Below, piece by piece: positions 1 to 9,742 of a stretch of 32,469 nt of DNA. Numbering within the stretch: position 1 is the first letter of the stretch; every line of letters begins with the position of its first letter. Source of the stretch: Klebsiella pneumoniae. Its GTDB lineage: Bacteria > Pseudomonadota > Gammaproteobacteria > Pseudomonadales > CAMAPQ01. Where the stretch lies: assembly GCA_945860125.1 (NCBI GenBank), contig CAMAPQ010000026.1, positions 1-32,469 on the forward strand, in the 5' to 3' direction. The position numbers were made by a program, and so were the translations under genes. The notes beneath the pieces were generated by a model. The model worked only from the letters and a program-made list of their open reading frames with translations, did no database searches and was not told the origin of the DNA.

Positions 1-132
1 ATAGTTTTTAGCAGCGCCAAAGAATTTCGTGAAGCAATAGTGGAATTTTTTGAGATTAAACTACCAAAAATGTTGCCGAGTTTAAGGCAAAGAATTAATG
101 ATAATTTTGAAATGCCATCATACGCTTTTTGA
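1..132 (+). mobile_element. IS630-like transposase, C-terminal fragment (runs in from left edge)
   Basis: An open frame enters at base 1 and ends at a TGA at 130-132. It gives a 43-residue tail beginning IVFSSAKEFREAIVEFF and ending RINDNFEMPSYAF. The pattern of FSS, a short acidic/aromatic helix, then RINDNF is what I recognise at the C-terminus of IS630-family DDE transposases. The rest of the element lies left of the window, so completeness cannot be judged. The adjacent Ser/Thr kinase gene on the other strand stops only 62 bases away, so this IS sits directly at the downstream end of the T6SS-related block. Confidence 0.7.
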
Positions 133-194
133 TTTCCGATAGGTATATAACTTACAAGCTAATAATCGAACAATAAATAACCGCACACAACAAA

Positions 195-1847
195 TTATTC
201 TTTTTGGCTACCATTTTTTTTTAGCGCAAAAATAGCCTTTGCAAACCATTCGGACTTATAAGGCTGAGAAGCTAAAAAAGAATCGTACAGATGGAATAGC
301 TCATACTCAATATCATCTGCTTTTTCTGCTTTTTCTGCTTTTAAGAAAGCATATAGCTCGTATGTTTTTTGATCGACAACTAAAAAGATATCACGCTCAA
401 AACCCACAGAGAGCATACTTGCCATTTTTAAATGAAACATTAGCTGCTCTGCTTTTTTAAATGAAGCAATATCATACTCACTTAAATTTACTAACTTTTT
501 TTGAATATTAAGCGAAAGTTGCCTTTTATTTTTATTAAGTAAAAGCAACGCATTATTGATCCTTAAAGAGTCTGCATATAATGCACTAACATTATTAATG
601 ATACGCTGAAAATCATTTATTTCTTGTGAAAATTCAATAGAATAATAGTCATTTATAAATCTAGAATGACGATCAGCCGTTTCTTCTACCTTAGAAATAA
701 TAGCTGCTTTAAAAAAAGAGCTTCTCTCAAAAAAATACGGATATCTATCAAGATATAAAACAACGCTATTAAATTTATTAACGAAAAGCAGATCAACTGT
801 CATGTTAATAACAAAAAATTGAAAAGAATAAAAAGAAAAAATAGACAAGAAAAAAAATACAAAGAAAAAAGAAAAAAATTTAATTTTCATGCTGGAAAAA
901 AAATAATTTTTCTTTTTAGCAAAAAAACTATCAAAAAAAGACATCTTATTATTATCAATAGAAGGATCTATAAACTGATTTAAAATCAACCATTTCTTAT
1001 GCTCTATTTTCTTTAAAAGCGTAGGCTTAATATTATGGCTGAGAACATATAAAGCATTTTTTTTGCGATAGGGATGATCAAAAGAATAAAGCATATAAAC
1101 AATACATCCAAACGAATAAGTATCATCAGATAAAGAGACATCACCTAAGCGAAGCAAATTTGCACTAGCATAAGCAGGTGTCCACGCTCTAAATTTATTA
1201 TTAGAAAAATGATTAATTTGAGAATTCAATATTCTAGCTATGCCAAAATCAATTATTTTAAGCTGATTAAATTTATCTATAAGGATATTCTGAGGCTTGA
1301 TATCTGAATGAACAATATTATTCTCATGAGAAAAAGAAATAGCATCATAAAGTTGTTTTATCCATAAATCTCTGCAAACACACAGTCTTTTTGTATCAAA
1401 CTTAATAATATTATCTAACGAGACACCATCAATCCATTCCATGGTAAAAAAATATATATCTTCATCTTTATCAAAAGAAAAAACATTTACAATATTTGGA
1501 TGAGATAAAGTCTGAAGTTTTTTTACTTCTTGATGAAGAAGCTTAGAGCCTAAAACATCTTTCATCAAAGCAGAATGCAGCAACTTAATAGCCACTAACG
1601 GGCTTGGATCTCCCGCTTCTTTTTGTAATAAATCTATTGATTTATAAACAACCCCCATACCTCCGGAACCTATCTTTTCTTTCAACTCAAATCTATTCTT
1701 TAAAATACGACCAGGTTTATTAAATAATTTTTTTTCTACAAAAGACAAAGAAGCTATAGACTGATCTAAAAAAGTAACATCATCATTGAAAAAACCAATT
1801 TCTTCTATTTCTTCTATTTCTTCTAATATAGTAGGCAAAATATTCAT
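195..1847 (-). CDS. Transmembrane Ser/Thr protein kinase (T6SS-associated, PpkA-like context)
   Basis: Hanks-type kinase of 550 residues. Visible motifs are the glycine loop GSGGMGVVY (about 60-68), VAIK with the ATP lysine (K88), the catalytic loop HSDIKPQN (180-187, D182), DFG (200-202) and DDTYSFG (about 241-247). The HRD arginine is replaced by Ser, and the APE-like motif is degenerate (TPAYASAN). One hydrophobic segment (about 322-347) follows the kinase domain. After it come about 200 mostly helical residues, predicted periplasmic, that I do not recognise. Three in-frame 9-bp tandem copies lie near each end of the gene (EEIEEIEEI; KAEKAEKA). It lies 35 bases after the tssJ-like gene and is the last gene before the IS630 fragment. 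By analogy with PpkA-Fha systems it may phosphorylate the FHA partner or a T6SS part. That role is inferred. Confidence 0.85.
   Translation of the reverse strand: MNILPTILEEIEEIEEIGFFNDDVTFLDQSIASLSFVEKKLFNKPGRILKNRFELKEKIGSGGMGVVYKSIDLLQKEAGDPSPLVAIKLLHSALMKDVLGSKLLHQEVKKLQTLSHPNIVNVFSFDKDEDIYFFTMEWIDGVSLDNIIKFDTKRLCVCRDLWIKQLYDAISFSHENNIVHSDIKPQNILIDKFNQLKIIDFGIARILNSQINHFSNNKFRAWTPAYASANLLRLGDVSLSDDTYSFGCIVYMLYSFDHPYRKKNALYVLSHNIKPTLLKKIEHKKWLILNQFIDPSIDNNKMSFFDSFFAKKKNYFFSSMKIKFFSFFFVFFFLSIFSFYSFQFFVINMTVDLLFVNKFNSVVLYLDRYPYFFERSSFFKAAIISKVEETADRHSRFINDYYSIEFSQEINDFQRIINNVSALYADSLRINNALLLLNKNKRQLSLNIQKKLVNLSEYDIASFKKAEQLMFHLKMASMLSVGFERDIFLVVDQKTYELYAFLKAEKAEKADDIEYELFHLYDSFLASQPYKSEWFAKAIFALKKNGSQKE
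317..343. repeat. 9-bp tandem repeat, three copies, in kinase C-terminal coding region
   Basis: Plus-strand unit CTGCTTTTT occurs three times in a row (317-325, 326-334, 335-343, the last copy ending in A). On the coding strand it encodes repeated Lys-Ala-Glu. The unit length is a multiple of three, so copy-number change would alter protein length without shifting the frame. Confidence 0.8.
1799..1825. repeat. 9-bp tandem repeat, three copies, in kinase N-terminal coding region
   Basis: Three perfect plus-strand copies of TTTCTTCTA (1799-1807, 1808-1816, 1817-1825). They encode the EEIEEIEEI segment near the start of the Ser/Thr kinase. This is a second short in-frame repeat in the same gene. 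Confidence 0.85.
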
Positions 1848-1882
1848 TAAATAGCGCGCCCAAGCTTAAACATTTAAATAAA

Positions 1883-2326
1883 TCAATAGGTACTAATATG
1901 GATAGTATCCTGATCAAGATAATAATAAATTGATTTAATATTTTCATGACTTAAATCAACATACTTTTTCCATTCGGCCCGATCAATTTTTCTAAACCCT
2001 GCAATAATAACCAACCATTGATCTTTAGTCTTATCAAAAGAAATTTCTTTTTCAGCACCAGGCTCCAGTTCAAATTCAGCCACTAAACGACCGGCTTGAA
2101 GCGCTTCTTTCTTTCCAGAAAACAAAGCAATTGAATCTTTAGAATCAAATTGATCTTTAGAAAAGACAGAAAATATTTTAATAGGAATAATAGAAGGAAT
2201 ATTATTTATGTCAGGATTAACTTTTTGAGAAACGAAAATTTTTACATTCATCTCTTCACTATCTCGACCGGGAATAAGAGAGCAAGATGAAAGAAAAACC
2301 AAAAAAAATAAGAAAAATTTAGTCAT
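1883..2326 (-). CDS. tssJ: TssJ-like T6SS outer-membrane lipoprotein
   Basis: About 147 residues from the ATG at 2326. I prefer this start to the longer frame opening at 2374 because it yields MTKFFLFFLVFLSSC, a clean lipoprotein signal peptide with lipobox LSSC (Cys15). The mature part has the TssJ/VasD look: an early VKIFVSQKVNPD strand, PSIIPIKIFSVF, DQFDSKD, LEPGAEKEISF, then WLVIIAGFRKIDRAEW. This is a beta-sandwich ending with the 'AFR-x-ID-x-AxW' pattern of the family. TssJ anchors the TssM-TssL complex to the outer membrane in T6SS. None of those partners is in the window. It follows the FHA gene by 31 bases and precedes the kinase by 35, so it is probably co-transcribed with both. 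Confidence 0.8.
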   Translation of the reverse strand: MTKFFLFFLVFLSSCSLIPGRDSEEMNVKIFVSQKVNPDINNIPSIIPIKIFSVFSKDQFDSKDSIALFSGKKEALQAGRLVAEFELEPGAEKEISFDKTKDQWLVIIAGFRKIDRAEWKKYVDLSHENIKSIYYYLDQDTIHISTY

Positions 2327-2357
2327 TATTATTTTCAAAACAGACCACCCAATTAAG

Positions 2358-3293
2358 TTAATATTTATCTTCAAAATTAAAGAAATTAAAATTTTTCTTA
2401 TAATTTACCTTATATTCATTCCAGCATTTAGAATCAATTAATCCTGCTTTTTTATCAAAAAATCCAATTCTCTCAAAAATATTTTTCTCTATCAAATCAG
2501 GGTTTAAAGAACCCTTAATTAAATTACTCATCACAGCAGAATCCTGATAAATTCTTTTATAGCTAGATTTTATTTCATTAAAAGAGTATTTAACAGCACT
2601 TGGAAGTGATGCAGAATTTTTTTTAATTCTTGAAAAATCATTTAAAATAAATGACTTATTATCATACTCACCAGTTAAAAACTCATTACTTTTTGACTCA
2701 AAATTTTTGTTATCGTTATAGGAATAACTATGTTCTTTTTTCTGAATCAATAAGCCTTTAATACCAGCCAAACTTTCTGCAAGAGTAAGTCCGCAACGTT
2801 CAATAATTGCAACTAAACACTCTTGAGGTACATCTGAAAGATCTATATCTAGCGCCATAAAGAATTTTTTCAAAGCAAGATGATACTGATAAAAAGTATC
2901 TTGACTCAAGTATTGATATTCTTTCTTTAATGAAAACAAAGAATCATCTAGCACCGGTACATTATCATGATCTACTTTTTTAAAGTATATTTTTAGGTTA
3001 CCTATAATGACAATTTTGTTAGCATTTAAAGGGTAAGGCTTTTCTTTTTCTAATTTATTTTTTTTATTTTTCTCATCAAAAAAAATCCCGTTTTTACTAA
3101 TATCAATCAAAAAATAGCAATTATTAGAAAACTCAACCCGCGCATGCTTAGCAGAAATAAGCCTGGCTTTATCCCTTATAATCCAATCACAAGAAGGATG
3201 CCGACCAATTAAACCACCACGACCATTAAGTAATATTATTTTCTTATTAGAAAAACACTCTGCTGAATTAATTAGCTCAAAAGAAACGGCCAT
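2358..3293 (-). CDS. FHA-domain protein, TagH-like (T6SS-associated)
   Basis: About 311 residues from the ATG at 3293. A GTG at 3314 would add seven residues, but MAVSFELI matches the usual start of this family. The N-terminal FHA domain (about 1-85) keeps the phosphothreonine-binding pattern: GGLIGRHPS (about 26-34), ISAKHARV (about 46-53) and SKNG (about 66-69). The C-terminal half has the features of T6SS FHA proteins (TagH/ImpI): a helical region with LPSAVKYSF, SYKRIYQDSAVMSNLIKG, then SKCWNEYKVNYKKNF. FHA proteins of this type bind a phosphorylated partner and control T6SS assembly. The Ser/Thr kinase two genes downstream is the obvious candidate partner (inference). Confidence 0.82.
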   Translation of the reverse strand: MAVSFELINSAECFSNKKIILLNGRGGLIGRHPSCDWIIRDKARLISAKHARVEFSNNCYFLIDISKNGIFFDEKNKKNKLEKEKPYPLNANKIVIIGNLKIYFKKVDHDNVPVLDDSLFSLKKEYQYLSQDTFYQYHLALKKFFMALDIDLSDVPQECLVAIIERCGLTLAESLAGIKGLLIQKKEHSYSYNDNKNFESKSNEFLTGEYDNKSFILNDFSRIKKNSASLPSAVKYSFNEIKSSYKRIYQDSAVMSNLIKGSLNPDLIEKNIFERIGFFDKKAGLIDSKCWNEYKVNYKKNFNFFNFEDKY

Positions 3294-3361
3294 AAAAAAA
3301 TTAACCCTATTCACTTCGACGCCATAGCGCCACTAATGAATAACAGTCTAATTTTTATAAC

Positions 3362-3955
3362 TTAAAAAGGATATTTTTTTTCAATGCCAAGCATTAAATC
3401 GACACCATTATTTTTGACAACCCACGCCAATAAGTCGCCAACTTCCACTAACTCAGAAAGCTCAATCAATGCATAGAAAACATTTCTGCTTAGTTTTGCT
3501 AATAACCCATTTCGTATCTCAATGTAAAGATTCTGTTCTTTTCTTTTGATAGAACAAAACAAGAAAGTTTTTAGAGCGTCATTAACAAGAATAATATTGC
3601 CTATATTTGTCAAAAAAAACAGTTCGTTTTTTTGTGAATTTTTATTATAAAAAAAATGATAGTCAATAATTAAAAACGGCACGTCCTCTACTTCTATTTC
3701 AATTTTTTCAATAGGCGTAACAAGGCTATATTTTAAACCTTCAAGAACAAGAATGGATGAAAAAAGCGCCACCATTTTCTTTCTGACAATAATAGTTTCA
3801 TTAAAATACCAAGCACCACTGCTATCTATTTTAATATTTAGTTTTCCACAATTATGTGGTTGCCATTCAGATAACAAAGATACATCCTGAGTTACTTTAT
3901 ATTCATCAATATAATCTTTCCAGGCATTGTTATCTTCAAGGAGACGGCTCATCAT
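3362..3955 (-). CDS. DUF1285 family protein
   Basis: 197 residues. It begins after an AGGGAAG ribosome site six bases upstream of ATG 3955. I recognise the DUF1285 pattern: CGKLNIKIDSSGAWYFNETI, then RKKMVALFSSIL, LVTPIEKIEIEVEDVPFLIID, LFFLTNIGNIILV and a final LYIEIRNGLLAKLSRNVFY. Structures are known for the family but I know of no proven biochemical role. It has no signal peptide, so it is probably cytoplasmic. It lies 40 bases after the hybrid kinase and about 68 bases before the FHA gene, all on one strand. This places it between the sensing and secretion parts of the block. That position is unusual for the family as far as I know. Confidence 0.75.
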   Translation of the reverse strand: MMSRLLEDNNAWKDYIDEYKVTQDVSLLSEWQPHNCGKLNIKIDSSGAWYFNETIIVRKKMVALFSSILVLEGLKYSLVTPIEKIEIEVEDVPFLIIDYHFFYNKNSQKNELFFLTNIGNIILVNDALKTFLFCSIKRKEQNLYIEIRNGLLAKLSRNVFYALIELSELVEVGDLLAWVVKNNGVDLMLGIEKKYPF

Positions 3956-3995
3956 GATTGCTTCCCTAGTAAAAAATATTAGCCGCCTAAATATA

Positions 3996-6425
3996 TCAGG
4001 CTACTAACCATTTACTCAAGACTTCATGCAAATTTTCACGGCTAAATGGCTTAGATAGATAATCATTCATACCTGCCTCAAGACATTTTTCTTTATCTCC
4101 TTTCATAGCATTAGCTGTCATAGCAATGATGGGTATTATTTGAATAACACCTGCTTTTCCTAGCGAGACAATTTCTTTGGTTGCCGCATATCCATCCATT
4201 ATTGGCATTTGGCAATCCATAAAAATAAGATCAAATTTTTCCTTCGTCAGAATGGCAATTGCTTCTACACCATTCTCGACAATATAACACTCAATACCAA
4301 GCTTTGATAATCTACCCACAACAACTTGCTGATTAACTTTATTATCTTCAGCAATCAATATTTTTTTTCCATGAAAAAAAAGATTCGATTGGCTGATAAC
4401 AGAAGATAATTTTTCTTTTTTATCTTCTGTTTTATCTAAAATTCTACCAATAACTTTAATGACATCTGCCCTCTTAAAAGGCTTTTCTATAAAAAAATGG
4501 CGATCTATCATGCCAAGCATTAGAAATTTATTCTTATCAGATAAGTCCCCAGTATAAACCATGGGAATACTAGAATCTTTAATCAAGCCATATACTTTAG
4601 ATAACTCAACCCCAAAACTTTCCAGAGTGGAAATATCAATGACAATTAAATCCACATCTTTTTTTTCTTTTATTTTCTCATAAAAATCAATAAAATTTAA
4701 TGATGAATTAATCGCTATATTTTTATAGATAATTTTATTAATCACCTCAATAGAAATTTGATTTTTTTCTAAAATTAAAATATTTTTAACATCAGCTAAC
4801 TCAAAGTAGTCATTATTAACAACTTGAATTAAATCAAATTGAACAGAAAAAGAAAAAACACTTCCTTTACCAAATTCACTTCTTAAATTTATTTCTCCAC
4901 CCATTATTGATACTAGCTCCCTTGATAAGGAAAGGCCTAAACCTGTACCACCATACTGCCTAGTTGTTGAACTATCTGCTTGAGAAAATTTATTAAAAAT
5001 AATAGGTATGTATTCAGCTTTAATACCTATACCTGTATCTTCAACATCACATAAAATTGACACTTTATTTTCGCCATAAAACTTAGCATCTAAAACAACC
5101 TTGACATAACCTTCCGCAGTAAATTTAATGGCATTTCCTACAAGGTTATATATAATTTGTTTAAACCGAGTGGGATCACCCAACACTTTTATCGCGGTCT
5201 TTGGTTCATATACAAAAACCAATTCAACATTTTTTTTATAACAAGACTCACCCAATAAAATTAAGCAATCGTTAATAGCATCTTCAACATTAAACTCTAT
5301 TTTTTCCAATTCAAATTTTTCACTTTCAATTTTAGAGAGATCTAAAATATCATTTAGAATACTCAAAAGTGCATAACCAGAATTAAAAGCAACTGTTGAA
5401 AAGTTTTCTTGTTCTTCTGTTAAAGAGGTATCTCTCATTAAGCTCAACATACCCAATACACCGTTTAGTGGCGTACGAAGCTCATGACTCATATTAGCAA
5501 AAAACTGAGATTTTACCTTCAAACTTTCTTCTGCAACTCTTTTAGTCTCTTCAGATAAAGAAACCATATGCTTAGCATCTGTAAGATTTAAGATGGTTAA
5601 TTCTAATTCATAGTTTGTTTTTATAAGCTGGTTCGTTCTTTTTGAAACCTCAACCTCTAATTTTTCTTGATGAGACTTTAATGCCTGTTCTCTTCCTATA
5701 ATTTTTTTAATCATCTCATTAAAAACATCAGTCAAAATACCAATTTCATCTTCAGAATACTTCATAACTTGAACTGAATAATTATTATCATCACGCACTT
5801 TTCTCATCGCATCAGAAAGCATAAAAATAGGTTTTGATAAAACTCTCTGCACTTTTAAAATACCAAAAAAAGAGATAGATAAGCCCAAAAAAAAAACAAA
5901 AAGTATAATTATTGAAATATAATTACGGTAAGCATAGTAATCATCCATAGTACCAGCTAAATACAACCATCCTGGCTTATCATCACTCACTGTCATTTTA
6001 TTTTTAATATAAAACATATTCCCTGAAAGCAGAATAATATTTTTTCTTTCAGGGGTTTTAGATAACACCTCACTAGTTAGCACAGAAAAATCTTTTCTAT
6101 TTTTCAATGAATCATCATAATAACTAGCAAAAATTTCTTTATTTTCATAATCTAAAATAGCGGCAAATTTTATACTTTTCAGCGTTTTTAAAGAACGCAA
6201 TGTTTCTGTTGCTGATTTTTTATCATTAAAAATCAATGCGGGCTCTACATGGTAAGAAATCAAACTAACCTGTAAAGCAAGATCTTCCCGTAGTTTTTTT
6301 TTGCTATTTATTTCCTCAACAACAAGAAAAGAAATACAAATAATAACCAGTGAAAAAGTAACTACAAGTGAATTAATTAAGGTGAATTTTGTTGAAATAG
6401 AGGCTTTCTTAAAGAAATAAAACAT
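3996..6425 (-). CDS. Hybrid sensor histidine kinase (CHASE8-like sensor, HAMP, two receiver domains)
   Basis: 809 residues. The order is TM (about 14-36), a periplasmic domain of about 130 residues with the CHASE8-like start (SYHVEPALIFNDKKSATETL), TM (about 168-190), HAMP (about 190-243), coiled coil (245-300) and HisKA with FFANMSHELRTPLNG (His314). The ATPase domain follows (NLVGNAIKFT about 428-437, DTGIGI 463-468, GGTGLGLS 492-499). A degenerate receiver (about 547-665) lacks the acidic pair but keeps D597 and K648. A full receiver follows (about 687-805; EDN, D737 in FMDCQMP, K792). There is no HPt domain, so a separate phosphotransfer protein is expected. The start codon overlaps the stop of the YfiR-like gene (TAATG), which suggests translational coupling. 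The pairing implies that the YfiR-like protein controls this kinase. Confidence 0.88.
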   Translation of the reverse strand: MFYFFKKASISTKFTLINSLVVTFSLVIICISFLVVEEINSKKKLREDLALQVSLISYHVEPALIFNDKKSATETLRSLKTLKSIKFAAILDYENKEIFASYYDDSLKNRKDFSVLTSEVLSKTPERKNIILLSGNMFYIKNKMTVSDDKPGWLYLAGTMDDYYAYRNYISIIILFVFFLGLSISFFGILKVQRVLSKPIFMLSDAMRKVRDDNNYSVQVMKYSEDEIGILTDVFNEMIKKIIGREQALKSHQEKLEVEVSKRTNQLIKTNYELELTILNLTDAKHMVSLSEETKRVAEESLKVKSQFFANMSHELRTPLNGVLGMLSLMRDTSLTEEQENFSTVAFNSGYALLSILNDILDLSKIESEKFELEKIEFNVEDAINDCLILLGESCYKKNVELVFVYEPKTAIKVLGDPTRFKQIIYNLVGNAIKFTAEGYVKVVLDAKFYGENKVSILCDVEDTGIGIKAEYIPIIFNKFSQADSSTTRQYGGTGLGLSLSRELVSIMGGEINLRSEFGKGSVFSFSVQFDLIQVVNNDYFELADVKNILILEKNQISIEVINKIIYKNIAINSSLNFIDFYEKIKEKKDVDLIVIDISTLESFGVELSKVYGLIKDSSIPMVYTGDLSDKNKFLMLGMIDRHFFIEKPFKRADVIKVIGRILDKTEDKKEKLSSVISQSNLFFHGKKILIAEDNKVNQQVVVGRLSKLGIECYIVENGVEAIAILTKEKFDLIFMDCQMPIMDGYAATKEIVSLGKAGVIQIIPIIAMTANAMKGDKEKCLEAGMNDYLSKPFSRENLHEVLSKWLVA

Positions 6426-6994
6426 TATTCCTTTACCTCATTATGCTTCACAACTTTTGCAAGCCTCAACAAATTTGAACTTATAATGACATGAGTTTCT
6501 TTTAACTTATCATGGTCAATCGAAAATCTTAACCGGTTATCTTCTAAAAAAAGATATATCATTCCTTTTTTATTGAAGAATTTTTCAGACTCGCTAATTA
6601 AAACAGTTGACTCACTAAAACGGCTATTATCATCAATTTTATTTTTCATAAAAAAGATATGACATTCTAAATCACGATACGGCGGATAAATTTTTCTAAT
6701 CTTAATTGCTTTACCGTTAATTTCTCTATTATTAAGCTTTTCCCAAATAGAATACTCATCATCACTATTCATAATGCAGATAACATAATTATTTAGCTTA
6801 TTTAATGATGTTTCTCGCCAGTCCAAAAATTTTAAAAAATTAAAGACATAGATCGTTTTCATCTGGCCGGCAGAAAGAAGCTCTTCGCTCTCAACAACAG
6901 GTAATGAAGAAAAGAAAAGAAAAGAAAGACAAAAGAATTGAGATAACTTTTTATAAAGAAATTTTTTATTATTTTTATACCGCTTAAAAAGCAC
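6425..6994 (-). CDS. YfiR/DUF4154-family periplasmic protein
   Basis: 189 residues. The GTG start at 6994 has an AAGGGG ribosome site about eight bases upstream. The signal sequence (about 15-36, LSQFFCLSFLFFSSLPVVES) is followed by the family signature: KTIYVFNFLKFLDWRE, NYVICIMNSDD, a basic stretch KAIKIRKIYPPYRDLECHIFF, then STVLISESEKFFNKKGMIYLFLEDNRLRFSID. YfiR in Pseudomonas is a periplasmic repressor of the CHASE8 diguanylate cyclase YfiN. Here the partner encoded one base downstream is a histidine kinase with a CHASE8-like sensor rather than a GGDEF protein. It is the first gene of the minus-strand block, after a 150-bp intergenic region. Confidence 0.8.
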   Translation of the reverse strand: MLFKRYKNNKKFLYKKLSQFFCLSFLFFSSLPVVESEELLSAGQMKTIYVFNFLKFLDWRETSLNKLNNYVICIMNSDDEYSIWEKLNNREINGKAIKIRKIYPPYRDLECHIFFMKNKIDDNSRFSESTVLISESEKFFNKKGMIYLFLEDNRLRFSIDHDKLKETHVIISSNLLRLAKVVKHNEVKE

Positions 6995-7147: not shown

Positions 7148-7852
7148 CTAATTAGGAAAGTAGGAGTGAGCCCAGTCTTTAAATAAAACAAACAAATAAT
7201 TAGTTTCTGACAAAGAGGTGTCTTTTAACGCCAAGCCTCTAAACGATAGAAAAGAAGTCTCTCTTAATTGGCGAGAAGAAACATCGTAAAGCCACAATGT
7301 TAACTTGATATCTCTTAATACACTAAAATCAGAAGAGTGACGGCAATTAGGCCTATCATAGTAACGACTAACACCACGAACTGATTCATACTTCTCTTTT
7401 TTATTTAAACAGGCGGGAGGTATCTTATTCTTAAATCCACTTAACACTTCAATTTGTGAAAAAAATATAAACTGAATATTTTCCTGCTCTGCCAAAGAAA
7501 AAATATGCTCACGCGAGGACTGATCATTAAGCAACCTTACTTCTGGGAAAAAAGCAGAAAGTGCAGAAAACTCTAAATCGCTAGTTTTTTTTATCTCATC
7601 AAATGGAATATCAGACTGTATCGGTGAGTAGCTAGCCATCACAATACCAATACGACTATCCTTTGGCAGCTTAAAATTATTTTGCCGAACAACCTGATAT
7701 TTATCGCCTAAAACACGAAAAACATTTTTTTCATTCCCAAACATACGATCAGTATTATTTTGGCATCCCGAAAAAAAAACAGAGCATGTCAAAATGACGC
7801 AATATCTTATAATAGGAAAAAAACGTCTTATTTTACCGTTATTTTTTTTCAT
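7148..7852 (-). CDS. Putative lipoprotein (DUF4823-like)
   Basis: About 234 residues from ATG 7852. An upstream GTG (7861) is less well placed relative to the AGGCGAG ribosome site. The N-terminus is basic (MKKNNGKIRRFF), followed by a hydrophobic stretch and FFSGC, a lipobox, so the product is probably anchored in the outer membrane or inner-membrane periplasmic face. The body (SRIGIVMASYSPIQSD, LEFSALSAFFPEVRLL, QFIFFSQIEVL, LWLYDVSSRQ) resembles small lipoproteins annotated as DUF4823. The match is from memory and weak. It overlaps the end of the TetR gene by 14 bases, so the two are one transcription unit and the lipoprotein may belong to that regulator's response. Confidence 0.65.
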   Translation of the reverse strand: MKKNNGKIRRFFPIIRYCVILTCSVFFSGCQNNTDRMFGNEKNVFRVLGDKYQVVRQNNFKLPKDSRIGIVMASYSPIQSDIPFDEIKKTSDLEFSALSAFFPEVRLLNDQSSREHIFSLAEQENIQFIFFSQIEVLSGFKNKIPPACLNKKEKYESVRGVSRYYDRPNCRHSSDFSVLRDIKLTLWLYDVSSRQLRETSFLSFRGLALKDTSLSETNYLFVLFKDWAHSYFPN

Positions 7853-8501
7853 CCAAATCACTCGCCTGAGATTTTCGATACTGGCCTCTGTTCCCCATCC
7901 TTACACCGATATCCATTAAAAACTCAAAAAATCGAGGTTTATCTTCTGTATATTGATTAAAAAAATCCGAATGATAAAGCGCAACAGCACCATGAACTAA
8001 AGCCCACGCAGCACAGATATGAAAATAAGGCGGCACATCCTCCAAGACATCCTCGGCAATACGAGCAGAAATAATTTCCTTCAGCTTGCCTACATTAGAG
8101 GCTCTAATTTTATGTAGTTTTTCTAGGAACTCAGGCATCTTATTTGCCTTAAGGCATAAGCCTTCTAAGCGATGAAATAATGCATAACGCTTTGGATCTT
8201 GCATACGAAAACGGAAATATTCACGAGCAAGACGATCTTTATTATCATCAAGAGAAATTGTACGAAATAACTCGGCTAACTCCTCCTCATAACTTAAAAG
8301 AAGTCTTAAATAGATTTCATAAATAGAGGCGAAATGCTTGTATATTGTCCCTTTACCTATACCCGCTTTATCCGCAATCATTGCGACAGTTACATCTTCT
8401 TCGCCTTTCTCTAAAAAAAGCAATAAAGCAGAATCTAAAATACTCTCCTCTCTTTGACGAAAAAGCTTTTTTTTCTCGTTGACCTTTTCCAAGTCAGCCA
8501 T
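7839..8501 (-). CDS. TetR/AcrR family transcriptional regulator
   Basis: 220 residues. The start ATG has GGAG eight bases upstream. The N-terminal DNA-binding domain is typical: ILDSALLLFLEKGEEDVTVAMIADKAGIGKGTIYKHF (about 21-57), where the last part is the recognition helix. The remaining about 150 residues form the helical ligand/dimer domain (FRFRMQDPKRYALFHRLEG, then PPYFHICAAWALVHGAVALYH). The ligand cannot be told from sequence. It is first in a two-gene unit with the lipoprotein and is divergent from the YiiX-like gene across a 209-bp gap that holds a small inverted repeat, so it may repress itself and/or that neighbour. Confidence 0.9.
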   Translation of the reverse strand: MADLEKVNEKKKLFRQREESILDSALLLFLEKGEEDVTVAMIADKAGIGKGTIYKHFASIYEIYLRLLLSYEEELAELFRTISLDDNKDRLAREYFRFRMQDPKRYALFHRLEGLCLKANKMPEFLEKLHKIRASNVGKLKEIISARIAEDVLEDVPPYFHICAAWALVHGAVALYHSDFFNQYTEDKPRFFEFLMDIGVRMGNRGQYRKSQASDLDEKK

Positions 8502-8710: not shown

Positions 8711-9742
8711 ATGAATAATGAAAATAATAAACATTCTGCATCATTTACAGACGTAATCATTCGTTGGCTTAATCAAGAATATTCTCACTATCATATCCCA
8801 CTGTGCGATTTTGAAAAAATGAGGCACGAACTAAAGCCTTGTGATGTCTTACTAATTGAAGGTCGCTCACGCATAAGCAATGTGATTCGCTGGATCACAA
8901 CCAGCCCTTGGACACATGCCGCCCTTTATATCGGCAAACTGCATGATATTGAGGATCCTATCGTAAGAGAAACAGCCGCTCTTTATCTAAAAGAAACACC
9001 GGATGCTCAATTTATGATCGAAAGCCTATTAGGAAAAGGCACACTGACTAACGCACTGACTGCGTATAAAGATGATCATATTCGCATTTGCCGGCCTAAA
9101 AACTTATCTTATAAAGATGCACAGCAGGTCATTCGTTATGCTGTAAGTCGCTTAGGTGCAGAATATGATGTAAGACAAATTATTGATCTTGCAAGATTTT
9201 TATTCCCATGGTTTTTACTACCAAGACGCTGGCGGTCAAGTTTATTTGGACATAATGCCGGCAGATCGACTAAAACAGTTTGCTCGACAATGATTGCTGA
9301 AGCATTTGATTTTGTACAATTTCCTATTTTGCCACTTGTCAAAAAAACAGACTCGACAGAAGGCATTCAACTCTTTAGAAGAAACCCAAAACTATGCGTG
9401 CCTAAAGATTTTGATGTGTCACCCTACTTTGAGATTATTAAATATCCCTTTGTTGACTTCACTTTTCATGCTGATTATCGACTTTTACCCTGGAAAGGTA
9501 GCGGCCATCTTACACACGAAGAAGCCAAATATTACATGGCTCGTTCAGATGGGGATCAAAGTCAACTTGATTCCTTTAGCAAAACAGAAGAACAATACGC
9601 ACCATCAATACAAAATGACGAGCTTATTCTAAATGAGCAGATAACAGATGATACTCTCAGGCAAGATCAAAAAATAACCACCGTTACAAAGTTATATCAA
9701 AAACTAGGGAAAAAATTGCAAAAAGGACAAGAAAAAGAATAA
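8711..9742 (+). CDS. YiiX/YebB-like permuted papain-fold (NlpC/P60-related, C92-type) protein
   Basis: 343 residues with no signal peptide. The permuted NlpC/P60 arrangement is visible: LKPCDVLLIEGRSRISNVIRW (about 41-61), the catalytic-type histidine in SPWTHAALYIG (His69), a possible third polar residue in FMIESL (Glu103), and the cysteine late in the domain in KTVCSTMIAEAF (Cys191). In this fold His comes before Cys, the reverse of ordinary NlpC/P60. Family members are thought to act as amidases or lipid/thioester hydrolases; the substrate here is unknown. The last about 90 residues are polar and look like an extra tail. It stands alone on the plus strand, and the ribosome site is weak (AGG about 14 bases upstream). 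Confidence 0.75.
   Translation: MNNENNKHSASFTDVIIRWLNQEYSHYHIPLCDFEKMRHELKPCDVLLIEGRSRISNVIRWITTSPWTHAALYIGKLHDIEDPIVRETAALYLKETPDAQFMIESLLGKGTLTNALTAYKDDHIRICRPKNLSYKDAQQVIRYAVSRLGAEYDVRQIIDLARFLFPWFLLPRRWRSSLFGHNAGRSTKTVCSTMIAEAFDFVQFPILPLVKKTDSTEGIQLFRRNPKLCVPKDFDVSPYFEIIKYPFVDFTFHADYRLLPWKGSGHLTHEEAKYYMARSDGDQSQLDSFSKTEEQYAPSIQNDELILNEQITDDTLRQDQKITTVTKLYQKLGKKLQKGQEKE

Follow-up and report, generated by a model that had tools for sequence, protein, structure and literature searches.

Introduction

In the type VI secretion system (T6SS), TssJ is seen as a structural anchor, and PpkA and Fha as the switch. The closest described counterpart of the genes considered here is the T6SS threonine phosphorylation pathway (TagQR/TssW/RtkS-PpkA-Fha-PppA), which brings together an outer-membrane lipoprotein, a transmembrane Hanks kinase and an FHA reader, and in which PpkA contacts TssJ and Fha is phosphorylated (PMC12607579, PMC6082577, PMC6657622, PMC3953482). 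Acidovorax citrulli PpkA has TssJ, TssM and TssL as interaction partners and Fha as a phosphorylation substrate, and its condensates recruit TssJ and Fha (PMC12607579); in Pseudomonas and Serratia, PpkA is governed by the periplasmic or outer-membrane proteins TagQ/TagR and RtkS (PMC6657622, PMC6082577). Furthermore, Vibrio cholerae TagH is reported to have an output unrelated to the T6SS via its phosphopeptide site (PMC8993066). Here, we describe a stretch of DNA of 32,469 nucleotides (hereafter the window) in which genes for an FHA protein, TssJ and a Ser/Thr kinase lie side by side (hereafter the trio). The trio offers the same three kinds of component as the known pathway; unlike that pathway, however, it was found with neither a T6SS machine nor TagF nor a linked PppA, and TssJ, normally structural, is the sole lipoprotein beside the kinase.

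Organization of the Contig

The genome carrying the window (hereafter G000) comprises 2.58 Mb on 125 contigs and is 96.83% complete, and the window is the entire contig C26; its features are collected in Table 1. The left end is occupied by part of an IS630-type element, near-identical copies of which are present on contigs C88, C16, C84, C48 and C113, the part common to the copies stopping at about position 147–153 of the window. The contig terminates 45 bases beyond the kinase gene, within this copy. The assembly stops here because the element is a multi-copy repeat, and contigs cannot be joined through it because near-identical ends occur on several of them; since the window is a whole contig ending in this repeat, leftward extension is impossible in the present assembly. 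The other IS630-type copies of G000 sit mostly at contig ends, copies or fragments being found at or near the ends of many contigs (those named above, as well as C36 and C85), and they probably account for much of the fragmentation of the genome.

The preliminary description of this DNA had reported six genes of named families, tightly packed on one strand, with the first pair overlapping, and open reading frames and family models agree with it. All six are encoded on the minus strand and follow one another as YfiR, CHASE8 hybrid kinase, DUF1285, FHA protein, TssJ and Ser/Thr kinase; the YfiR and hybrid kinase genes overlap by 1 base, and the other gaps do not exceed 47 bases (40 between the hybrid kinase and DUF1285, 47 between DUF1285 and the FHA protein, and 35 between TssJ and the kinase). 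The FHA and TssJ genes overlap by 17 bases when TssJ is started at TTG. The G+C content is 28–31% in the block against 31–40% in the remaining window, and AT-richness was rejected as proof of a foreign origin, as the AT-rich stretch includes a conserved operon made up of the first three genes. A gene for a protein with a Peptidase_C92 domain (YiiX-like permuted papain amidase; window 8711–9742) adjoins the block on the opposite strand.

Table 1. Features at the left end of the window, with their coordinates and the matches or signals by which they were recognized.
Feature	Position	Strand	Basis
IS630-type transposase 3' end and IS end	1–150	+	C-terminal reading frame ending IVEFFEIKLPKMLPSLRQRINDNFEMPSYAF (stop)
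PpkA-like Ser/Thr kinase, N-terminal Hanks kinase	195–1847	-	PF00069, E 1.6e-39
TssJ/SciN outer-membrane lipoprotein	1883–2374 from TTG; 1883–2326 from likely ATG	-	E 9.6e-15
TagH/Fha-like protein, N-terminal FHA domain, divergent T6SS_FHA_C region	2358–3314	-	PF00498, E 3.9e-12
DUF1285 protein	3362–3955	-	PF06938/PF21028 over cut-off, E 1.8e-23 and 7e-12
CHASE8-HAMP hybrid histidine kinase, HisKA, HATPase and REC receiver domain(s)	3996–6425	-	PF17152, PF00512, PF02518, PF00072
YfiR/HmsC-like periplasmic protein (YfiR/DUF4154)	6425–6994	-	PF13689, E 2e-25
Probable lipoprotein, no Pfam family	7148–7861	-	ORF; lipobox FSGC by inspection
TetR regulator	7839–8501	-	PF00440

The Upstream Half as a Conserved Sensing Operon

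The upstream half of the block matches, gene for gene and in order, the TetR-YfiR-CHASE8 hybrid kinase-DUF1285 operon of family f29, which contains a pair of the NF053591/NF053592 type and which, unlike the window, is not followed elsewhere by FHA, TssJ and kinase genes. Against these two models, the window proteins remain under the cut-offs, YfiR scoring 75 bits with NF053591 (TOL_0243-type YfiR; cut-off 125) and the hybrid kinase 123 bits with NF053592 ("HK near YfiR-like"; cut-off 194); in four f29 genomes that share this gene order, the corresponding kinase matches the window hybrid kinase with 469–579 bits. In genome G028, the order is TetR-YfiR-HK-DUF1285, the TetR that directly precedes the other three genes matching the window TetR with 263.7 bits, and the three-gene order of the window recurs in G147, G262 and G420. 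In none of these four genomes is YfiR-HK-DUF1285 flanked by genes for an FHA protein, TssJ or a Ser/Thr kinase. The upstream half thus represents a conserved operon, and only the three-gene part of the block is unusual. DUF1285, for which a role in signalling has been proposed (PMC2954208), is the final gene of this operon. A promoter-like match found just upstream of it (4019–3990) belongs to a class of matches that occur at chance frequency here in the promoter scan. The probable lipoprotein gene of the window stands between TetR and YfiR, sharing 23 bases with the TetR gene, and in G147 a lipoprotein weakly like DUF4823 takes the same place, with no sequence similarity detected between the two.

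These comparisons bear on the proposal that the six genes form a single device, in which the YfiR/CHASE8 kinase pair controls the TssJ-kinase-FHA switch by co-transcription. Such control agrees with the packing of the genes on one strand, no gap being longer than 47 bases, and with the lack of terminator-like sites on the coding strand from one gene to the next; yet the sensing operon occurs without the trio in the four genomes above, FHA-kinase pairs occur without the sensing operon in two others, and the joint arrangement is known from one genome only. A single six-gene device is thus very improbable, and on sequence grounds the block is better described as a composite of two modules, the sensing operon and a T6SS-derived trio.

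The FHA Protein, TssJ and the Ser/Thr Kinase

The FHA protein, whose likely start is the ATG at 3293, carries an FHA domain clearly over the cut-off (PF00498, 46.9 bits; cut-off 20.7) in which the phosphopeptide-binding residues GR, S..H and NG are retained in the alignment. Its C-terminal part aligns to TagH proteins, with scores under the cut-offs for both PF20232 (T6SS_FHA_C; 19.9 bits, cut-off 23.7) and, for the protein as a whole, the TagH equivalog TIGR03354 (80.1 bits, cut-off 120.25). TssJ is identified by PF12790 (54.8 bits, cut-off 27) and TIGR03352 (63.2 bits, cut-off 31.6), and its sequence matches TssJ entries in the PDB; in a single-sequence model of low confidence (pLDDT 58), the top Foldseek matches are TssJ structures, the best with an E value of 6.7e-4 to 3rx9. 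The likely ATG start at 2326 lies immediately before a signal peptide with the lipobox LSSC, which can be read directly as MTKFFLFFLVFLSSC, and the lipobox and core motifs are retained in the alignment.

The kinase has one transmembrane segment, placed by eye at about residues 325–350, followed by a predicted periplasmic region of about 200 residues, and its catalytic motifs (GSGGMG, VAIK, HSDIKPQN and DFG) are intact in the alignment; its predicted structure has a pLDDT of only 34. The nearest relatives are the T6SS PpkA proteins of family f29, with up to 221 bits, and the alignment with them extends through the transmembrane segment. Unlike these PpkA proteins and the kinase of genome G021, however, the window kinase has no C-terminal FGE-sulfatase domain. 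In the kinase tree, it groups with kinases of two other genomes, G021:C106 and G018:C14 (support 91/81, or 93/94 with all columns); in the all-column tree it is placed inside a starred set with the f29 T6SS PpkA (99/94), and in the kinase-domain tree no starred set contains it. A constraint holding the window kinase with f29 alone was not rejected (p-AU 0.11). As the branches are long (2.4–3.2), we regard the grouping as a moderate argument, with long-branch attraction a possibility. Branches are also long in the FHA and TssJ trees, which give the window proteins no resolved placement.

The two genomes with which the kinase groups are also those that have, as here, an FHA gene and, after it, a PpkA-like kinase gene away from the tss genes. 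Their pairs differ from the window in several respects: no TssJ lies between the two genes, that position being taken in G018 by a serine dehydratase-like gene; the kinases are larger, with 899 residues in G021, where an FGE domain is present, and 830 in G018; and both genomes, which belong to two other families, still hold a T6SS elsewhere, whereas none was found in G000.

All three reading frames of the trio are intact. At alignment columns with 85% or higher conservation among homologues, the kinase keeps 52 of 61 residues, TssJ 7 of 10 and the FHA domain 12 of 14, while the trio proteins agree with the commonest residue at only 9–18% of the variable columns. As far as the alignments reach, the keeping of conserved columns despite such divergence shows long past purifying selection on the trio.

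Search for a T6SS Machine and Comparison across the Order

A search of G000 for tssBC, tssK, tssL and tssM, which the preliminary description had proposed, found none of them (for TssL, the core is absent). With Pfam models, TssK, TssC and TssM gave no match in this 96.8% complete genome, and with a joined protein query, TssB, TssE, TssF, TssG, the TssL core, Hcp, TagF and VgrG were found to be absent, the only matches in G000 being OmpA-type domains (query 1410–1552, the C-terminal part of TssL). The same query matched T6SS parts in six T6SS-bearing genomes used as positive controls. In all, eleven components or domains were covered. Among 392 genomes of the order, TssJ is found in 123 and TssK in 127, and G000 is the sole TssJ carrier without TssK; in the literature, nothing was found on an orphan TssJ.

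The gene order of the trio also departs from that of T6SS loci. A script placed TssK after TssJ in 38 of the 43 loci that were fetched, and in four of the five exceptions the two genes are adjacent by coordinates; in the window, the kinase comes after TssJ instead of TssK. The T6SS loci of family f29 have the order fha-tssJ-tssK-tssL-tssM-pppA-ppkA, and the trio therefore corresponds to the first two genes and the last one, with none of the middle genes. Scans of the named genome collection with the FHA protein, and then with the kinase, turned up no close relatives of the trio, and its position after DUF1285 has been seen in G000 only.

The block could nevertheless be the edge of an ordinary T6SS cut by an IS630 repeat, the remaining genes lying on unassembled or unbinned contigs. 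The contig does end within a multi-copy IS, the three genes at its left end are T6SS-derived, the genome is fragmented and incomplete (125 contigs, 96.83% completeness), and the AT-rich block (28–31% against 31–40% G+C) would favour loss during assembly or binning. Even so, every core gene tested is missing from G000, along with TagF and also Hcp and VgrG, whose genes are often dispersed; and whereas TssK follows TssJ in almost all of the T6SS loci examined, it does not do so here. We consider an unrecovered T6SS unlikely, though a serious alternative. Of the two alternatives raised in the preliminary description, the cluster edge cut by an IS thus stands as regards the IS at the contig end and the origin of the three left genes, and is disfavoured in that G000 yielded no further T6SS gene and that the gene order is unlike the T6SS clusters of the order; the self-standing device reusing TssJ may hold for the three-gene part, for which a device or a remnant is favoured over an ordinary cluster edge.

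Possible Retention of the Trio without Its Machine

By gene order and similarity, the source of the trio is judged to be a T6SS locus with the arrangement fha-tssJ-tssK-tssL-tssM-pppA-ppkA. It may have come down to the present as a mere remnant, the T6SS having been lost recently by IS-driven deletion and rearrangement and fha, tssJ and ppkA having been left by chance and without use. In keeping with this, the gene order is that of an f29-type locus minus its middle genes, active rearrangement is evident from the IS630 copies found at many contig ends, the end branches of the trio are long (2.4–5.6 against medians of about 0.3–0.4), and the FGE domain of the kinase is gone; a loss too recent for decay may also be compatible with the intact genes. 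However, the three frames are intact with conserved motifs kept, and a remnant of this shape presupposes one or more precise internal deletions leaving short intergenic gaps on both sides. In addition, the survivors are not a random piece but exactly the control trio, a set known to contact one another from the reports on PpkA partners in A. citrulli, Pseudomonas and Serratia. A chance remnant is, in our view, rather unlikely, though it too is a serious alternative.

The most likely reading, which we put at an even balance, is that the trio is a control part of a T6SS which has been separated from its machine and kept, with a TssJ-PpkA-Fha switch working without a T6SS. An intact trio with no detectable machine suggests that the control circuit may have a use by itself. 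More specifically, and somewhat short of evenly balanced, the trio could be a transenvelope sensor that stands alone and acts by Ser/Thr phosphorylation, TssJ having been turned into a sensor or ligand of the kinase. TssJ, in the outer membrane and facing the periplasm, would touch the periplasmic region of the PpkA-like kinase, and an envelope signal read by TssJ would alter this contact and the activity of the kinase. The kinase would in turn phosphorylate threonines, either of the FHA protein or of a different target to which the FHA domain then binds, and the FHA protein would alter the activity or localisation of a cytoplasmic partner outside the T6SS. Against a stand-alone switch, the FHA-kinase pairs of G021 and G018 may serve their T6SS in trans, the window kinase is without an FGE domain, the PppA-like phosphatase of G000 more likely pairs with another kinase (see below), the contig ends just past the kinase gene and the assembly is short of about 3% of the genome; the stand-alone reading draws on a trio known from one genome. 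If true, a genome keeping only the trio would make it possible to examine the switch in isolation from the machine, the T6SS control circuit would be shown to be re-usable, and matches to TssJ, TagH or PpkA alone would be no sign of a T6SS.

Other Phosphorylation Modules in G000 and Its Relatives

FHA proteins and Ser/Thr kinases also occur in other settings in these genomes. On contig C1 of G000 (about 79.2–85.3 kb; L024, L032) and on G021:C54 (L103), the order gspN-gspC-gspD-FHA-PP2C is found, with the FHA and PP2C genes directly downstream of gspD, and gspD-FHA-PP2C is likewise present near a contig edge in G062 (C132; L104). In G021, these genes are followed by a Sel1/caspase-domain protein and a Ser/Thr kinase, an arrangement similar to that of G062, and an orthologue of this gspD-linked kinase (40% identity) is encoded on contig C2 of G000. 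The gspD-FHA-PP2C-kinase set looks like a threonine phosphorylation module linked to the T2SS, and nothing was found in the literature on FHA or PP2C genes beside gspD. The PppA-like phosphatase of G000 is located in the gspCD operon on C1. A pairing of this phosphatase with the window kinase was considered and has been largely dropped, as C2 carries the orthologue of the gspD-linked kinase of G021 and G062; the C2 kinase is its more likely partner.

In family f24 (L126, L130, L132, L135, L139, L141), a PpkA-like kinase gene consistently comes right after a small lipoprotein gene, and no f24 genome is among the TssJ or TssK carriers in the lists for the order. Family f24 may be taken as a parallel case of a lipoprotein and a PpkA-like kinase without a T6SS.

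Further observations concern G000 itself. Contig C48 encodes a protein in which an IQ-like and a RING-like segment can be recognized by eye (283–777; L078), and contigs C35 and C11 (L223, L224) carry further protein kinase genes that are weakly similar to bacterial ones; together, these suggest a host-associated organism. On contig C43 (L033:6807–7718), a nucleotide-cyclase-like region precedes an FHA domain in what is the third FHA protein of G000.
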